A stretch of 34,934 nucleotides of DNA, from IMG/VR virus record IMGVR_UViG_3300047317_000797, positions 1 to 34,934 of that record. The stretch is one strand, 5' to 3'. This stretch comes from a virus. Every line of letters starts with the position of its first letter. Positions within the stretch are counted from its first letter, which is position 1. Of the stretch, positions 25,599 through 34,585 are shown piece after piece. Both the position numbers and the translations under genes were made by a program. The notes beneath the pieces were generated by a model. It was not told where the DNA came from. It did not search any database and saw only the letters and a program-made list of their open reading frames with translations.

Positions 25599-26236
25599 TG
25601 GGCGCCTACAACTACGACACCGGTGACTTCGGCGCTGACTACGGCGAGGTGACCCAGCACGGCTACATCTCGGGTCGCGGCTTCTCGGGTTCGGGGGCCA
25701 GCTTCGGCCAGACCTTCGCTTCGGCCAACCTGCGCTACGGCAACGTCGGTCTGCGTCGGTTCTGGCGCGGCCGTCCCAGCCTGACCGGTATCGACTCCTC
25801 GTTCTCTCGCAGCACGCCGACCGGCCCCGGGATCATCGAGGGCGAAGGTCCGCTCAAGTTCCCCCACCTGCGGAGGGGATCGTCCGAGAAACCCCCGGCC
25901 AAGGACTACGGCCCGCCCCAGGAACAGGACATCAGCGGCCTCGCCAGCGTTCCCCGTCCCTATCCGGGCGGCGGCTCAGCCCGTCCGGGCACCCAGTTCG
26001 AGAAGGTCGAGAAGGTGGGCATCGGCCCCCGCAGCGGTTACGACCTCACGAACGTGCAGAATCGACCAATCCCTGGCATGAGCACCCAGGCGTGGGAGGG
26101 TGGCGCCCCGAGCTCGGGCACCGGTTACAGCAGGGGCTTCAACGACCCCGCCATCGGGTCCCAGCCGGCCATCGGACCGGGCACGCCGGCGATCGGCCCG
26201 TACCGCAACGCCATCGACACGACATCCTCTGATTGA
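25598..26236 (+). CDS. Gly/Pro/Ser-rich protein of unknown function
   Basis: The 212-residue product starts at ATG 25598 in a TGATG overlap. It is low complexity, rich in Gly, Pro, Ser and Tyr with no hydrophobic segment; the last 30 residues repeat short PAIG units (NDPAIGSQPAIGPGTPAIGP). Such proteins may be flexible parts of the virion. It is co-transcribed with the preceding hydrophobic protein. Function unknown. Confidence 0.62.
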   Translation: MGAYNYDTGDFGADYGEVTQHGYISGRGFSGSGASFGQTFASANLRYGNVGLRRFWRGRPSLTGIDSSFSRSTPTGPGIIEGEGPLKFPHLRRGSSEKPPAKDYGPPQEQDISGLASVPRPYPGGGSARPGTQFEKVEKVGIGPRSGYDLTNVQNRPIPGMSTQAWEGGAPSSGTGYSRGFNDPAIGSQPAIGPGTPAIGPYRNAIDTTSSD

Positions 26237-27618
26237 TGCAGCTTTACCTCACCGGAGCGGAGGTATCGAGCCACCTCGCCCTCCTCCAGGAATGCGGTGT
26301 GGAGCGGGTTGCCGTCTCCGCCCACAACCTCGCTCGCAACGCCAAGGGCCCGGGACTGGCCACGTGGGCCTCCCAACAGCGTCTCGGCGGCCTGGAATGG
26401 GTCCTCTACGCCGACTCCGTCCATACGCCGGTTTCGATCGTGGCCCAGGTGCTCAGCGCCGCAGAAGTGCAGCCCGAGGCCGTCACCGGGCCCATCGAGT
26501 GGTACGAGACGTCCTGGCTCAAGGACAGCGACCTGCTGTTCCTCCCCACGTGGGATGGGACCGACCCGGCAACCCTGCGGGAGTACACCGAGGACTTCGA
26601 CGGCGTGATGCTGCCTGACAGCGTTGTCGACAACCCTGTGACCGTCCGCGCCGCCAAAGCATCGCTGCCCAGGATGGGGATGTTGGGCGCCCTCACCGGA
26701 CGCTCGAAGGGGTTGGAGCGCTTCGACATGCTGGTGTCGAGCTCGTGGTGGGCCGTGCAGAAACATGGGGAAACCCAGGTTTGGACCGGCGACCGCCTCG
26801 TGCGCCTCAACAACGAGGACAAGGAGCTCAAGCGCAAGAAGTACGCCGACGCCATGGAGGCGTTGGGGTGTGACGCCGCGCTGATCCTGGCCGATGACCC
26901 CAATGAGTGCGTTCGTCTGGCCATCAAATCCTGGTTGCGCTTGGAGGCCCACATCGCCGCCGGGGGCACCACGACGTCTCCCAGCGTCTCCCCGGTAGTT
27001 ACTAATCCGGCTCCTGGCGGCCCACCCAACGTTGTCCCCATCGCGACGCCTGTTGCTAGGCCGGCCCTCCAGACCGGGCACCTGACGCTGCCGGTGATGG
27101 GCCTCCACCGCTCCTCGGTCACCGTCACCAACCCCGACGGCTCCGAGAGCCAGGTTGAGTCGAGCGCGCTCACGATCAGCCCCAAGAGCCTGCGGATCTG
27201 CAACACGTGCTCGCTGTCGGTGGGGTGCCCGAGCTTCACGCCCCACGCCGCGTGCAGCTACGAGATCCCCGTCACCATCCGCACCAAGGCCGAGCTCGAC
27301 GGCGTGATGTCCAGCTTCGCCGTGATGCAGGCCCAGCGGGTCCTCCAGGGCCGCTTCACCGAGGAGGTCAACGGCACCCTCGACGTGCTCCTGGGCAAGG
27401 AGATCGACCGGTTCATGAGCCTGGTCAAGACGTGGCGGGAGATCGAGGACAACCGCGACAGCCTCAAGATCACCGTCGACTCCAAGGGTGACGCCGGGGC
27501 CCAGATGGGCGTGCTCAGCCGGCTGTTCGGCGCCAAGGCCGGTCAGAACGCGATGGCCCTGGACGACCCGATCGACGCCGACGACCTCCTGGAACAGATG
27601 GACGACGACGGCCCCTGA
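26236..27618 (+). CDS. two-part protein with C-terminal Cys cluster
   Basis: The 460-residue product starts at ATG 26236 (TGATG overlap). Residues 1-240 form an alpha/beta domain opening with a beta strand (MQLYLTGAEV) and a HLALLQECGVERVAVS helix; a Pro/Thr linker (about 245-280) follows. The C-terminal 130 residues have a C-x2-C-x5-C-x7-C cluster in ICNTCSLSVGCPSF..AACSYEIP, and then a helical region (MQAQRVLQGRFTEEVNGTLD, REIEDNRDSLKITV) resembling conserved actinophage proteins found near DNA-packaging genes. Metal or Fe-S binding is likely; an exact role, possibly packaging-related, is not established. It closes the plus-strand block. Confidence 0.7.
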   Translation: MQLYLTGAEVSSHLALLQECGVERVAVSAHNLARNAKGPGLATWASQQRLGGLEWVLYADSVHTPVSIVAQVLSAAEVQPEAVTGPIEWYETSWLKDSDLLFLPTWDGTDPATLREYTEDFDGVMLPDSVVDNPVTVRAAKASLPRMGMLGALTGRSKGLERFDMLVSSSWWAVQKHGETQVWTGDRLVRLNNEDKELKRKKYADAMEALGCDAALILADDPNECVRLAIKSWLRLEAHIAAGGTTTSPSVSPVVTNPAPGGPPNVVPIATPVARPALQTGHLTLPVMGLHRSSVTVTNPDGSESQVESSALTISPKSLRICNTCSLSVGCPSFTPHAACSYEIPVTIRTKAELDGVMSSFAVMQAQRVLQGRFTEEVNGTLDVLLGKEIDRFMSLVKTWREIEDNRDSLKITVDSKGDAGAQMGVLSRLFGAKAGQNAMALDDPIDADDLLEQMDDDGP

Positions 27619-28463: not shown

Positions 28464-28844
28464 TTAGCTACTAACTCCATGCTCCGGGGCTTCGGGGTGC
28501 AGCATCCGATGGAACTCGGCCACCTTGGCGACCAGGGCCTCGGCCGACTCCATCGGCACGCAGGTGGCCTGCATGGTCACCCCCGGCACCCGGCCGTTCA
28601 GCCAGCGCCCACCCTGGTGGGGGGCCATGGGGACGACGAACAGCGTCGAGGCGTTCGGCGGCATCGGGTCCCAGCCGCAGATGAGCAGCATCAAGCTGGC
28701 GTTCCAGTCACGGTCGCGGATGTCGCCCAGCATCGACACGTTGGTGACGACGTCTCGGGCGTGGCGAGTGATGTCCTCGTCGCTCATGGGCTCCAGGGGG
28801 TCGCCCAGCAGTGGCTCGGTCAGATGGTCGTCATCCGTGGGCAC
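28464..28844 (-). CDS. unknown protein in minus-strand operon
   Basis: The product has 126 residues from GTG 28844, which has AGAGGT 7 nt upstream and overlaps the previous gene by 14 bases; a GTG at 28853 is an alternative. It has a short acidic N-terminus, a Met/Leu-rich segment (SMLGDIRDRDWNASLMLLICG) and a helical end. No family was recognised. The 87-bp gap downstream (28377-28463) holds no gene; TG-G-TATGAC on the minus strand there is a weak extended -10 candidate. Confidence 0.65.
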   Translation of the reverse strand: MPTDDDHLTEPLLGDPLEPMSDEDITRHARDVVTNVSMLGDIRDRDWNASLMLLICGWDPMPPNASTLFVVPMAPHQGGRWLNGRVPGVTMQATCVPMESAEALVAKVAEFHRMLHPEAPEHGVSS

Positions 28845-29529
28845 TGAACACACCTCTCACTCGCACGGCCTCGGGGGCCACGATCACCTCGGACTCGCCT
28901 CGGCCCATCAGGTAGGCCAGGACGGCGCCCTTGTTGACCTCACCCACCAGCACCGAGGGGCAGTCGTCCTCCTGGGCGAACCGGCGGGCGAACCACGCCG
29001 CCTTGCGCCGGTCGGTGGTCCACGACCATCCCTCTTCGTTGAGATCCTGCTCGAAGCCCCGGTAGACGGTGATCACGTCATCCATGTCGGCCAGCGCCGC
29101 CCGCTCCTCGTCGTCCATCATCGCCTCACGACCGGGACGGGGGTATCTCAACAACTCGTCCCACTCGTCAAAGTTCTCGTGGATGTTCTCGGAGTCCGAC
29201 CACACGTCGCCAACCAGACCCCAGTATGTGGTGTCGTCCACCAACTCTGTGAGCTCCAGCAGCGCCTCCAGGCGCCACGGCCGCTCGTGCAGGAAGATGA
29301 ACGTGTGCCACTGCTTGTCGGCCAGCGCCTCGGCGGTGTGTTGGCGCTTCCAGCACAGCACCGTGTTGTAGCGGGCGTTCATCTGCGGCATGTACATCGG
29401 CTCGTTGACGAACTTGTGCTTCAACATGGCGCCGAAGGGCCCGTCGTCGTACACGCACGCCGCCAACTCGGGGTCGAGCTCGCACGGCGTCGTCCACTCC
29501 TTCATCAGGACGTCAGGATCACTCGTCAC
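28831..29529 (-). CDS. probable ADP-ribosyltransferase-fold protein
   Basis: The 232-residue product starts at GTG 29529 (GTGA overlap). The C-terminal 85 residues show the R-S-E order of the arginine-type ADP-ribosyltransferase fold: Arg157 in VYRG, Ser169-Trp-Thr in GWSWTTDR, then strands (SVLVGEVNKGAVLAYL) and Glu212-Ser-Glu214 (ESEVIV). If active it would transfer ADP-ribose from NAD+ to a host protein, as T4 Alt and ModA do. The N-terminal 145 residues are unfamiliar. The assignment rests on motif order, not on a search. Confidence 0.68.
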   Translation of the reverse strand: MTSDPDVLMKEWTTPCELDPELAACVYDDGPFGAMLKHKFVNEPMYMPQMNARYNTVLCWKRQHTAEALADKQWHTFIFLHERPWRLEALLELTELVDDTTYWGLVGDVWSDSENIHENFDEWDELLRYPRPGREAMMDDEERAALADMDDVITVYRGFEQDLNEEGWSWTTDRRKAAWFARRFAQEDDCPSVLVGEVNKGAVLAYLMGRGESEVIVAPEAVRVRGVFSAHG

Positions 29530-29699
29530 TGCCGCTCCAACTCGATGTGCTGGACGCACATGTCTCTGATCTGCACCGGCACGCCGGCCCAACGGAGATG
29601 CATCATCAGCACGTCCCAGTCGGCCTTGCGCATCACCACGAACTCGGTGGTGCCGGGGAACGCCTCGGCTAGGGCATCAGCGGTGGGATCGCGCCTCAT
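29526..29699 (-). CDS. small protein of unknown function (57 residues)
   Basis: ATG 29699 overlaps the upstream stop (ATGA) and opens a 57-residue product that overlaps the next gene by four bases. It has a helix near residues 25-42 (DWDVLMMHLRWAG) and a C-terminal Cys/His pair. A longer frame extending up to 29825 was rejected because it runs back through the gene upstream. Confidence 0.6.
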   Translation of the reverse strand: MRRDPTADALAEAFPGTTEFVVMRKADWDVLMMHLRWAGVPVQIRDMCVQHIELERQ

Positions 29700-30369: not shown

Positions 30370-30599
30370 GACGCCACCGCCTGGGCCAGGAGGCCGATCA
30401 GGTCGGTGGCCTGGCGCTTGGTCAGACGCATGCGCTCGGGGACCTCGTAGCCGACCCAGCCCTCGATGAGGATCGGGTGCGTCTCGCCCTCGACGGTGTA
30501 CACGAGCACCTGCTCGATGCGGTGGGTGTCCTTGTCGCAGGTCTGGACCGCCAGCCCGGTGGTGTTGCCGACCGGGGTCAGGCCGTCGCGCTCGCTCAT
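30366..30599 (-). CDS. small protein of unknown function (77 residues)
   Basis: ATG 30599 lies in a TGATG overlap. The product has a beta-like first half (LAVQTCDKDTHRIEQVLVYT) and a helical C-terminus (RLTKRQATDLIGLLAQAV). No domain recognised. Overlaps on both sides place it firmly in the minus-strand operon. Confidence 0.62.
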   Translation of the reverse strand: MSERDGLTPVGNTTGLAVQTCDKDTHRIEQVLVYTVEGETHPILIEGWVGYEVPERMRLTKRQATDLIGLLAQAVAS

Positions 30600-31054
30600 C
30601 AGTGGAACCCCACGTCTTCGCCACGCTCGTGGGCCAACAGCAAGCCCTTGACGAACTGCTCGGTCCACTCGCGCCAGTCGTCCTGCTCCTGGGCGATCTC
30701 GGTCAGGCGCCGGGCCAGGGGGCAGGTGAAGCGATGGGGGATGGTGCCCTCGCAGTCGCTGTGCATCATCAGGACGTCGATGACGTCGGCGGGATCCTGG
30801 TCCCAGTAGCCCAGCCACACCTTGTTGGCGTAGGCCTCGCTCCAGCGGATGGTGTACGTCTCGCCGTCGGTGGTGACCGTCTCGTCGGGCAGCGGACCCT
30901 GCTCGGGGATGCGACCCTCGGGGATGGCGTAGGTGTCGCCGCCGTAGCTCGTCTTCTCAGAGCCCCAGCCGAGCACTCGGGCAATGTCCATGCGCCAGGC
31001 GCCGAACGTGCTGTAGCTGGCGTGCCAGCAATCGTGGGTGGTGTCGAGTCCCAT
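30599..31054 (-). CDS. conserved-type unknown protein (MGLDTTHDCWH family)
   Basis: The 151-residue product starts at ATG 31054 in a TGATG overlap. It opens with MGLDTTHDCWHASYSTF and has a later MMHSDCEGTIP motif, both rich in His, Cys and Asp, so metal binding is likely. Proteins with this opening recur in actinobacteria and their phages without known role. The C-terminal part is helical (ARRLTEIAQEQDDWREW). It is coupled to the genes on both sides. Confidence 0.7.
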   Translation of the reverse strand: MGLDTTHDCWHASYSTFGAWRMDIARVLGWGSEKTSYGGDTYAIPEGRIPEQGPLPDETVTTDGETYTIRWSEAYANKVWLGYWDQDPADVIDVLMMHSDCEGTIPHRFTCPLARRLTEIAQEQDDWREWTEQFVKGLLLAHERGEDVGFH

Positions 31055-31542
31055 CAGGCGAACACCCGCCGCATCGCCTCGATCATCCGCCCGCTGTAGC
31101 CCGACTTCTCCTCGATCGGCTCCAACCACTCGATGGCGCCCTCGTGGCGCACGTAGGGCAGGATCCGCACCGACGTGGAGGTGACGGTGACGATGTTGAT
31201 CACCAGCGCCTCGTGCACCAGCGGCTCACCGGCCTCGAAGGCCTGAGCCAGGCTGTTGTCGTAGGCGGCGCGGATCCGATCGGCCTGGGCCTCGGCGTCG
31301 TCGCCCTGGCTGTGGAAGTAATAGCTGTCGGAGGTGAACGCCACCCTGGTCGGCTTCGAGTCGGCCACGATCGGCAGCACGGTGATCAGGCGCTCGTAGG
31401 GGTGAGCGTCACCGGCCAGGACGAAGACCTGGATGCCGTCGGGGCTGTCGGTCACGAGGGTCGGGAACACGTCGCGCTCCTCGATCGACCGCTTGCCCGC
31501 TTGGAGCAGGTACTCGTAGAACTCGTCATCAGGGGTGGGCAT
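31054..31542 (-). CDS. first gene of the minus-strand operon, unknown function
   Basis: The 162-residue product is assigned to ATG 31542, because a promoter (TTGTGA, 17 nt, TATCAT) ends 7 nt upstream; ATG 31548 would lie before the expected transcript start. It begins MPTPDDEFYEYL, has strands around VFVLAGDAHPYERLITVLPI and LVINIVTVTSTSVRIL, and ends in a helix (GYSGRMIEAMRRVF). No family recognised. It is the promoter-proximal gene of a run of nine overlapping or closely packed genes. Confidence 0.68.
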   Translation of the reverse strand: MPTPDDEFYEYLLQAGKRSIEERDVFPTLVTDSPDGIQVFVLAGDAHPYERLITVLPIVADSKPTRVAFTSDSYYFHSQGDDAEAQADRIRAAYDNSLAQAFEAGEPLVHEALVINIVTVTSTSVRILPYVRHEGAIEWLEPIEEKSGYSGRMIEAMRRVFA

Positions 31543-32064: not shown

Positions 32065-32066
32065 GT

Positions 32067-32137
32067 AGGGCCGGGGGGACTCGAACCCCCGCTCCCCGGG
32101 GTGTGATCCCGGTGCTCTGCCGCTGAGCTACGGCCCT
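32067..32137 (-). tRNA. tRNA-Val (anticodon CAC)
   Basis: The minus-strand sequence folds as a 71-nt tRNA: 7-bp acceptor (AGGGCCG with CGGCCCT), D-arm GCTC/GAGC, anticodon stem CCGGG/CCCGG with loop ATCACAC, and T-arm GGGGG/CCCCC with loop TTCGAGT. U33 is present and the anticodon CAC reads the Val codon GTG. No encoded CCA. Confidence 0.93.
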
Positions 32138-32142
32138 GTGGA

Positions 32143-32212
32143 GCGGACGGCGGGACTCGAACCCGCGTTGCCACCTCGGCAAGGTGGAGCTCTACCACTG
32201 AGCTACGTCCGC
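32143..32212 (-). tRNA. tRNA-Gly (anticodon GCC)
   Basis: A 70-nt minus-strand tRNA: acceptor GCGGACG/CGTCCGC, D-arm GCTC/GAGC, anticodon stem CCACC/GGTGG with loop TTGCCGA, T-arm GCGGG/CCCGC with loop TTCGAGT. All stems pair fully. It reads GGC, a frequent codon here. Confidence 0.95.
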
Positions 32213-32217
32213 GTGGT

Positions 32218-32288
32218 GACCCGAGGGGGACTCGAACCCCCGTCTCCGGCTTGAGGGGCCGGGATCTTTGCCGCTGGACGATCGGGCC
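32218..32288 (-). tRNA. tRNA-Glu (anticodon CTC), unusual C33
   Basis: A 71-nt minus-strand tRNA: acceptor GGCCCGA/TCGGGTC with one G-U pair, a weak D-stem (GTC/GAT), anticodon stem CCGGC/GCCGG with loop CCCTCAA, T-arm GGGGG/CCCCC with TTCGAGT. Overall form matches bacterial tRNA-Glu. Position 33 is C where U is near-universal, so its function may be reduced or changed. Confidence 0.82.
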
Positions 32289-32292
32289 GTGT

Positions 32293-32352
32293 GGAGGAAG
32301 GGCACACCACAGTGTCGTTTGAGCCGCGGTATCCCCGACGGCCCCTTCCTCC
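32293..32352. repeat. 10-bp inverted repeat between tRNA genes
   Basis: GGAGGAAGGG at 32293-32302 pairs fully with CCCTTCCTCC at 32343-32352, enclosing 40 nt that includes a small ACAC/GTGT hairpin. It occupies the 66-bp gap between the Glu and Val-GAC tRNA genes. It lacks a T-arm, so it is not a normal tRNA; it may be a processing signal, a terminator or a decayed tRNA. Confidence 0.55.
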
Positions 32353-32354
32353 GT

Positions 32355-32426
32355 GGACACGGAGGGTGTCGAACCCCCGACCTCCTGCGTGTCATGCAGA
32401 CGCTCTTCCGGCTGAGCTACGTGTCC
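32355..32426 (-). tRNA. tRNA-Val (anticodon GAC)
   Basis: A 72-nt minus-strand tRNA: acceptor GGACACG/CGTGTCC, D-arm GCTC/GAGC, anticodon stem TCTGC/GCAGG (one G-U) with loop ATGACAC, and T-arm GGGGG/CCCTC with one G-U and loop TTCGACA. U33 and anticodon GAC give Val (GTC). A CAT anticodon reading was rejected because it breaks U33. Confidence 0.88.
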
Positions 32427-32489: not shown

Positions 32490-32549
32490 TTGCATTGTGA
32501 TACCCATGTTTGGGTACAGTCAGGCCTCCATGACCAGGGAGGAGACTAG
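32490..32549 (+). promoter_or_regulatory. promoter region and leader of the LPXTG gene
   Basis: TTGCAT (32490-32495) and TACAGT (32515-32520) could be -35 and -10 at a long 19-nt spacing. Between them lie GTGATACC (32497-32504) and the inverted repeat TACCCA/TGGGTA, a possible operator. Downstream, CCTCC (32525-32529) can pair with the Shine-Dalgarno GGAGG, and a seven-codon frame (ATG 32530 to TGA 32553) overlaps the main ATG 32550. Confidence 0.5.
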
Positions 32550-33263
32550 ATGAGAGCCCCAATCAGACAGATTGTGGGGGGAGTTGCTGTCGTTGCAGCG
32601 TTTGCGCTGCCGATGACGGCGCACGCCGGTGGAGGTGGTGGAGGTGGGTATCCCCCAGGAACCACCACCACGACCGTCTACGAGCACCATCCGACGACGA
32701 CGGAGAAGCCGCCTCACGAGACGACCACCACGTACGTGCACTCCACGACGACGATGAAGCCGCCTCATGAGACGACCACGACGATGAAGCCGCCGCACGA
32801 GACGATGAAGCCGCCGCACGAGACGACGACCACGGTCAAGGAGCATCCGACGACCACGACGGTCAAGGAACACCCGACGACGACCACCGTCAAGGCCACG
32901 ACCACCACGGTCAAGGCCACGACGACCACCACGGTGCCCCACGTGACCACGACGACGGTGAAGGCCACGACAACCACCGCCAAGGCCACCACGACGACCG
33001 TTAAGGCCATCACGACCACGGTGAAGGCGACCACCACGACGACACCGGTCGTTACGGCTGCGCCAACCACCGCTCATGTGACAACAGTGGCTCCCGTACC
33101 TGGTCAGGCGGCACCTCCGCCACCACCAGCAGGGCAGCAGTCGGCCAGCGCGCCGCTGCCCAAGACGGGTGCAGTGACCGAGCCGATCGTTTGGATCGCG
33201 GCGATCGTGCTTGGAACCGGTGGGTTCTTCCTGCTGGTTTCCCGCAAGCCACGCCGGGGTTAA
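32550..33263 (+). CDS. Thr-rich cell-wall-anchored protein with LPXTG sorting signal
   Basis: The 237-residue product starts at ATG 32550 with GGGAGGAG upstream. A signal peptide (basic MRAPIRQ, hydrophobic core, AHA cleavage near residue 26) is followed by a Gly run and a long Thr-rich repeat region (about 37-175) made of TTTTVK, KPPHETTTT and EHPTTTT units. The C-terminus is a sortase signal: LPKTG at 203-207, a hydrophobic helix, and a basic tail (RKPRRG). It would be exported and linked to the host wall by host sortase; none is encoded here. A strong terminator follows. It could alter host surface properties or receptor access. Confidence 0.88.
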   Translation: MRAPIRQIVGGVAVVAAFALPMTAHAGGGGGGGYPPGTTTTTVYEHHPTTTEKPPHETTTTYVHSTTTMKPPHETTTTMKPPHETMKPPHETTTTVKEHPTTTTVKEHPTTTTVKATTTTVKATTTTTVPHVTTTTVKATTTTAKATTTTVKAITTTVKATTTTTPVVTAAPTTAHVTTVAPVPGQAAPPPPPAGQQSASAPLPKTGAVTEPIVWIAAIVLGTGGFFLLVSRKPRRG

Positions 33264-33287
33264 CTTCGGTCTGGTGAAGGGGCGCAG

Positions 33288-33320
33288 GGGCCCGGGTCCT
33301 TTTGGGGGGGACTCGGGCCC
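33288..33320 (+). terminator. hairpin terminator after the LPXTG gene
   Basis: GGGCCCGGGTCC (33288-33299) pairs with GGACTCGGGCCC (33309-33320): 12 pairs with one G-U and a 9-nt loop of TTTTGGGGG. The following TTGCCTT is only weakly T-rich, but the stem is very stable and it lies 24 bp after the stop codon. Confidence 0.75.
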
Positions 33321-33401: not shown

Positions 33402-33932
33402 GTGCCGCTCAAGAAGCAGAACGTCATCGTCGAGGCGATGGTCCCCGTCCCCGCCGACGAGGGAGCCCATCCCGAGCACCCGATCTACATCCCGGTCACG
33501 CCCCCGCCCGACAGCGGCCTGAGCCCGGAACACCCGATCTACATCCCGGTGCCGCCGCCCGTGGTCGACAACTCGCTGCCGCCGTACCCGGACAACTCCC
33601 TTCCCGGCGACCAGCCGCGACCGGACAACACGCTGCCGGGTGATCAGCCCCGGCCGGACAACACGCTGCCCGGATCGCAGCCGTCGCCCGAGCACCCCAT
33701 CTACCTGCCGATCACGCCGCCGCCGGACTCGGGCCTCAGCCCCGAGCACCCCATCTACATCCCGGTGTACCCGGACAACTCGCTGCCGCCCTACCCGGAT
33801 CACCCGATCCAGCTTCCGCCGCCGGACCTCACCGAGGACCAGAAGCAGAAGATCAAGGAGTTCCTGTTCGGGAACCTCCCGCCGTACGAGAGCGTCCAGC
33901 CGGTGCAGAGCCAGCGGTCCGGACGCCGCTGA
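33402..33932 (+). CDS. Pro-rich repeat protein
   Basis: The 176-residue product starts at GTG 33402, with AGGAG 7 nt upstream; ATG 33381 and earlier codons lack such a site. It contains four copies of PEHPIY(I/L)P, two near-copies of a TPPPDSGLSPEHPIYIP unit, and PDN(S/T)LPGDQPRP repeats, so almost the whole chain is Pro-rich and extended. No signal peptide or membrane segment is visible. The C-terminus is a helix (LTEDQKQKIKEFLFG). Similar Pro-rich repeat proteins occur in actinophages with unknown role. It is flanked by terminators, so it is a single-gene transcription unit. Confidence 0.78.
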   Translation: MPLKKQNVIVEAMVPVPADEGAHPEHPIYIPVTPPPDSGLSPEHPIYIPVPPPVVDNSLPPYPDNSLPGDQPRPDNTLPGDQPRPDNTLPGSQPSPEHPIYLPITPPPDSGLSPEHPIYIPVYPDNSLPPYPDHPIQLPPPDLTEDQKQKIKEFLFGNLPPYESVQPVQSQRSGRR

Positions 33933-34033: not shown

Positions 34034-34585
34034 ATGCGGGCACAGCGGGCACTTCCAGCGGTAGCTGTTGTCACAACACTGCTTGCTGCATGTAGCAGCC
34101 AGGGTGGCCACGAGCTCTTGCCGTTGCGACCCACGAGCACCACCGTCGACACCAGCCAGATCGTGTCGCCGTCGTTCACCACGACGAGCTCGACGGGGCC
34201 GACCACCACCGAGGTGAAGGTGCCGACTACCCCCGACTGGCGGGTCAGTCCCCCGACGGTGGTCGTCTACGTCGCTCCGCCCGCACCAACCTCCACCGCA
34301 TCACCACCGCGACGGCGACCGAGATCAACAGTGCCACCCAAGCGATCCAGTCCCCCGCCGACCCAGCCTCCTGCACCACCACCGGAGACTACAGCCGCAC
34401 CCCCTCCTCCCCCCACGGAGCCACCGGCTCCACCATCAACGACCACTCCTCCCCAGGAAGAAGCTCAAACCACGGTCACCGCAGACGGGCTAACAGTGGT
34501 ATCGCCCATCGCCACTGACCTGGGCACCTTCGGCAACGGTCCAGGGCCTGGACGAGGCCGTGGTCACCGTCCTGGGCGCCCCTGA
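34034..34585 (+). CDS. Pro/Thr-rich lipoprotein
   Basis: The 183-residue product from ATG 34034 has a lipoprotein signal: short basic N-terminus, hydrophobic core and the lipobox LAAC with Cys20. After the Cys, the chain is Ser/Thr/Pro-rich and disordered, with repeated TTTxPP and PPAPPP patterns. No folded domain is visible. It would be lipid-anchored on the outer face of the host membrane. Small phage lipoproteins often block superinfection, a role compatible with this one but not shown. A TAGGCT element 9 nt before the ATG hints at a leaderless start; there is no Shine-Dalgarno site. Confidence 0.75.
   Translation: MRAQRALPAVAVVTTLLAACSSQGGHELLPLRPTSTTVDTSQIVSPSFTTTSSTGPTTTEVKVPTTPDWRVSPPTVVVYVAPPAPTSTASPPRRRPRSTVPPKRSSPPPTQPPAPPPETTAAPPPPPTEPPAPPSTTTPPQEEAQTTVTADGLTVVSPIATDLGTFGNGPGPGRGRGHRPGRP

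Follow-up and report, generated by a model that had tools for sequence, protein, structure and literature searches.

A virulent-looking phage and its relatives encode threonine-rich exported proteins with predicted sortase sorting signals

The gene at 32550-33263 of the window (the whole stretch of DNA analysed, a linear virus record of 34,934 bases that is surely an incomplete genome) encodes a threonine-rich protein with an export signal at its N-terminus and a sorting signal at its C-terminus. Sequence comparison supports a phage origin, selection at the protein level, both signals and a family of such proteins in related phages; actual anchoring, glycosylation and shielding are steps that we infer. 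It is suggested, with confidence that is evenly balanced, that a virulent phage uses the protein to build a threonine-rich coat, anchored by the host's sortase, which would shield the infected cell. The gene and its parts are:

32550..33263, plus strand: gene for the threonine-rich, putatively wall-anchored LPKTG protein (ORF, 237 aa)
32550..32627, plus strand: Sec-type signal peptide MRAPIRQIVGGVAVVAAFALPMTAHA, 26 aa, from inspection of the translation
32661..33065, plus strand: Thr/Lys/Pro/His stalk of KPPHETTTT units followed by TTTTVK[AE] units
33159..33260, plus strand: sorting signal of LPKTG, hydrophobic segment and SRKPRRG (TIGR01167 match)

The ORF begins with ATG and has a GGAGG ribosome site (ccagggaggagactagATG). 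By inspection only, the n, h and c regions of the signal peptide are recognisable and cleavage is predicted between AHA and G, that is, between MRAPIRQIVGGVAVVAAFALPMTAHA and GGG. Threonine accounts for 70/237 residues, the stalk covers ~135 residues (about 38-172) and the protein ends in LPKTGAVTEPIVWIAAIVLGTGGFFLLVSRKPRRG. Comparison of the VK/AK units (n=8) with one another, over 28 pairs, gave 0, 26 and 96 differences at codon positions 1, 2 and 3 respectively, and given this pattern the protein is translated and under purifying selection, and the repeats are old; the synonymous divergence between units argues against a recent expansion of the repeats. The antisense ORFs on the minus strand, 32520-33077 and 32765-33070, are by-products of the ACC/ACG repeats. 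No near-identical copy of this stretch of the window was found in IMG/VR, and the near-identical contigs L062-L064 do not extend over the gene region.

A preliminary description of this DNA had called the protein a textbook sortase substrate and proposed a profile search for the Gram-positive anchor. The first claim is borne out by the predicted export signal and the full LPKTG, hydrophobic and RKPRRG tail, and the search placed the protein above the cut-off of TIGR01167, the curated LPXTG model (17.3 bits against 15.9; 21.3 bits, E 2e-5, in a search of the whole record), which is short and leaky and also rings in many control genomes. Pfam listed no anchor family for the protein at E up to 1, which for so short a model is weak evidence, and such a match is not a defining requirement. 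For an independent background, thousands of six-frame ORFs from the fetched loci were screened with a motif-plus-hydropathy rule: outside two described exported families only one short ORF matched in the first set, and a broader set (2,490 ORFs) added one further short ORF, in two near-identical phages. The sorting signal of the window protein exceeds chance, and its anchoring by a host sortase is well supported by the sequence. The enzyme would have to come from the host, since a profile search of the phage records found no sortase above cut-off; a lone 13-bit match in G007 was rejected as a phage-encoded sortase, the ORF there matching nothing in Pfam but a lipoprotein site.

Larger relatives, which combine threonine stalks with one or two domains predicted to fold as beta-sandwiches, are encoded in ten further viral contigs. 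The window stalk is related at both protein and DNA level to the threonine-rich proteins of L056 (a 100 kb record), L057 and L058, with a tblastn match of the KPPHETTTT stalk at 4e-6 to L002 (the L058 record) and a blastn match of 84% over 89 bp to L056. The C-terminal domain of the relatives, A2, used as a probe, identified nine viral contigs and a tenth member was then found in L088; A2 is present in all nine relatives searched and absent from the window protein. Judged on these comparisons, the window protein is related to the beta-sandwich family through its stalk and its anchor without being a full member, a minimal form consisting of these two parts without a domain. Given that a scan of 84,980 cellular genomes (pattern-based, so that absence is not absolute) did not detect A2, this looks like a phage family rather than a recent host passenger. 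A search of 50,697 phage records with the L056 protein gave no match, and a literature search of limited coverage found no report of the family. The homologues do not consistently lack the signal or the tail, in keeping with the preliminary description: an export-type signal is present at the N-terminus of 10/10, 5/10 have a full tail and 5/10 end at LPxT. By inspection only, the L056-L059 proteins also have an N-terminal lipobox (LAGC, LTAC, LAAC), and with the LPxTG tail they could be tethered at both ends. In L056 and L058 a Ro60/TROVE-like RNA-binding gene lies directly upstream of the threonine-rich gene, near tRNA-Thr (L056:8271-9881, L058:5167-6786).

In the proposed mechanism, a virulent phage would make the stalk protein from its own transcription unit, host Sec would export it and the C-terminal hydrophobic segment would retain it in the membrane, where the host sortase would cut LPKTG between T and G and join the protein to peptidoglycan. 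Long, extended and probably O-glycosylated stalks would then form a coat around the infected cell. The benefit is most likely twofold: that cell's receptors would be shielded from further phages, and fewer progeny would be lost by adsorbing again to infected cells and debris. A glycosylated coat that affects phage adsorption is plausible, given that actinobacteria are known to O-mannosylate exported proteins and that phiC31 infection of Streptomyces requires the enzymes concerned, the phiC31 receptor appearing to be a glycoprotein (PMC5882110). The preliminary description had raised superinfection exclusion, adhesion and O-glycosylation, and each could apply to the window protein. Against the coat stand the lack of the relatives' beta-sandwich domains in the window protein, so that no domain is visible that could account for binding, the five relatives that have no membrane segment, so that not every member of the family needs anchoring, and the missing Pfam anchor domain.

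The main rival to the coat retains the same anchored protein and assigns it to adhesion or aggregation, whereby infected cells would stick to neighbours or particles and progeny would meet hosts. This would suit the beta-sandwich domains on the relatives' stalks (pLDDT mostly 70-88 where they are folded), for which the weak, FnIII/Ig-like fold matches are led by tandem FnIII domains and a biofilm-associated protein, and the prophage LPXTG protein SasX has been described as a virulence factor (PMC8655729). However, no such domain is present in the window protein and none of the fold matches has an E below 0.001, and adhesion is considered a serious but somewhat unlikely explanation.

Two kinds of C-terminus occur in the family. 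The window protein and those of L056, L057, L058, L059 and L076 have the full LPxTG, membrane segment and positive tail; in five tail-less relatives, which have no membrane segment, the frame stops one residue after LPxT (L060 LPPTR, L077 LPPTA, L080 LPPTR, L081 LPITE and L088 LPPTR; L081 and L061 are one record). Rescue of the tail-less homologues by frameshift or readthrough was rejected, there being no hydrophobic tail downstream in any frame of the four examined. Three of these phages (L060, L088 and L077) have the same LPxT-x ending in exported proteins that are unrelated: in L060 and L088 a 'GTGNAD' repeat protein ends in LPLTC, and in L077 a transglycosylase-like protein (Pfam PF06737) ends in LPVTR. 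GTGNAD proteins with full tails are present in L056 (LAVSG), L058 (LAFTG) and L061 (LPATG). The ORFs are:

L056:18223-20379(-), L058:16491-18221(-), L061:4430-6580(+): sorting-signal members of the GTGNADA/NSG-repeat exported family
L060:3376-5391, L060:8117-10156, L061:7147-8229, L077:6660-8432: LPxT-x-stop ORFs
L077:8595-8972, L080:2912-5374, L088:2849-4882, L088:7866-9896: LPxT-x-stop ORFs, continued

LPxT-x ends occur in 7/75 signal-like ORFs of the clade against 0.04 expected from composition, a count that uses a simple hydropathy signal rule, includes homologous ends that are not independent and concerns a motif noticed before counting. LPxT-x-stop ends in three unrelated exported families are far above chance. 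On the A2 domain tree, which has few well-supported branches, the full-tail and tail-less states are intermixed, and a single origin of the tail-less state is not supported.

These findings raise a broader proposal, speculative and rather unlikely as a whole, that a clade of virulent phages systematically rebuilds the infected-cell surface with its own exported threonine-rich proteins, and that in part of the clade the tail-less LPxT-x end of unrelated exported proteins serves as a new signal, which would either attach them without a membrane anchor or engage and block the host sortase. Mainly on account of the tail-less relatives, a sortase decoy is also suggested, in which LPxT peptides would flood or block the host sortase and disturb the display of host wall proteins; the excess of these ends in three unrelated exported families, the lack of frameshift rescue in those examined and the failure of the ends to form one clade on the domain tree would all fit. 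Nevertheless, the window protein has a full tail and large stalks would be an expensive inhibitor, and a decoy is regarded as improbable. It is similarly doubtful, and to be thought distinctly improbable, that the tail serves only as a membrane anchor, or that the protein is released, the host sortase refusing LPKTG: the class E sortases of many actinobacteria prefer LAXTG, the sorting sequence predicted for S. coelicolor is LAXTG (PMC5882110) and some sister phage proteins use LAVSG/LAFTG, but six family members share LP-x-TG with canonical spacing and a charged tail.

The threonine-rich gene appears to stand alone, with divergent tRNA genes upstream and a hairpin downstream. Its neighbours are:

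32065..32426, minus strand: four tRNA genes (Val-CAC, Gly-GCC, Glu-CTC, Val-GAC), divergent from the threonine-rich gene
33287..33320, plus strand: 15-bp GC-rich hairpin just 3' of the threonine-rich gene, possibly a terminator (z -2.9)
33402..33932, plus strand: PEHPIYIP-repeat phage gene adjoining the threonine-rich gene (52 viral-contig relatives)
34034..34585, plus strand: second exported Thr/Pro-rich protein, with lipobox LLAAC and without a sorting signal, by inspection

The hairpin is absent from the list of a T-run pattern terminator scan. The 33402-33932 product has proline-rich PEHPIYIP/PDNTLPG repeats, and its homologues in L004/L005 sit among structural and packaging genes; that of 34034-34585 had no convincing family match. 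On the left-hand side of the tRNAs, the protein encoded at 30599-31129 shares 66% identity with one from viral contig L086 and has twenty weaker homologues in viral contigs, and a stretch with the tRNA-Gly/Val genes of phage L057 is 81% identical to the window. A PADLOC defence search gave no match.

Elsewhere in the window, PHROGs identified a DNA polymerase, head decoration, tail genes, an endolysin and a queuine-type TGT; homology to Streptomyces phage GiJojo revealed RecA-like and Cas4-like genes. L056 and L058 are whole-phage relatives whose proteins, mostly 42-64% identical, lie in the same order at the window's left end. By these comparisons the contig is phage, and the gene's assignment to a phage, already made in the preliminary description, agrees with the replication, structural and lysis genes and with the viral-contig homologues on both flanks. 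The host is probably actinobacterial, to judge from GC and from replication genes that resemble those of Streptomyces phages; cellular genome scans for a host found no relative. That the contig runs at its end into the host chromosome, at a tRNA attachment site, or is chimeric there, as the adjoining tRNA cluster and the nearby contig end might hint, is very improbable and was rejected for the tRNA side, given phage homologues for genes on both sides of the tRNAs, no integrase, even GC and no cellular relative found. The product of 26233-27618 is a queuine/DpdA-like tRNA-guanine transglycosylase homologue (GiJojo 181 is annotated dpdA-like), which suggests 7-deazaguanine DNA modification. The product of 28831-29592 (minus strand), containing VITVYRGFEQDLNEEGWSWTTDRRKAAWFARRF, resembles ADP-ribosyltransferase-type motifs and matched no family up to an E of 1.

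A search of the window and nine relatives, of which five are 94-118 kb long, gave no tyrosine integrase and no serine recombinase or resolvase (PF00589, PF00239), although the relatives' records may be incomplete. Because neither was found in these ten records, the window phage and its relatives look virulent, and the effect on a lysogenised cell that the preliminary description had envisaged is not supported, with the same proviso.

That phages can carry LPXTG genes is already known from SasX/SesI, the LPXTG surface protein of staphylococcal phiSPbeta-like prophages (PMC8655729, PMC6048232), which like the present case is a phage-borne gene for a surface protein with a sortase-recognised LPXTG motif. 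SasX/SesI, however, belongs to a temperate prophage of a Firmicute host and is a virulence factor of the lysogen, whereas the gene described here differs by description in its phages without integrase, its threonine-rich stalk and its association with tRNA genes. New are the virulent-looking background, the apparently phage-specific stalk/beta-sandwich family and the alternative LPxT-x ends. Known prophage LPXTG proteins change a lysogen, but in virulent-looking phages any benefit must fall within one infection cycle; since the LPXTG family occurs in such phages, the coating of hosts by virulent phages becomes a testable idea, and the recurrent LPxT-x-stop ends could point to a new role for the sortase motif. 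GiJojo (115 kb) has colinear MerR-like, SSB, DNA polymerase (32%), RecA-like, Cas4-like and DpdA-like TGT genes and a Ro-like gene within its tRNA array, but no sorting-signal protein by the motif-plus-hydropathy rule. The closest likeness is to the proteins of L056-L059 and L076, which share with the window protein the export signal, the threonine-rich stalk (with KPPHE/HETTTT units common to the window and L056-L058) and the LPxTG, membrane segment and Arg/Lys tail, and differ in being larger (436-516 aa), in having one or two predicted beta-sandwich domains and, in four of them, in the lipobox.
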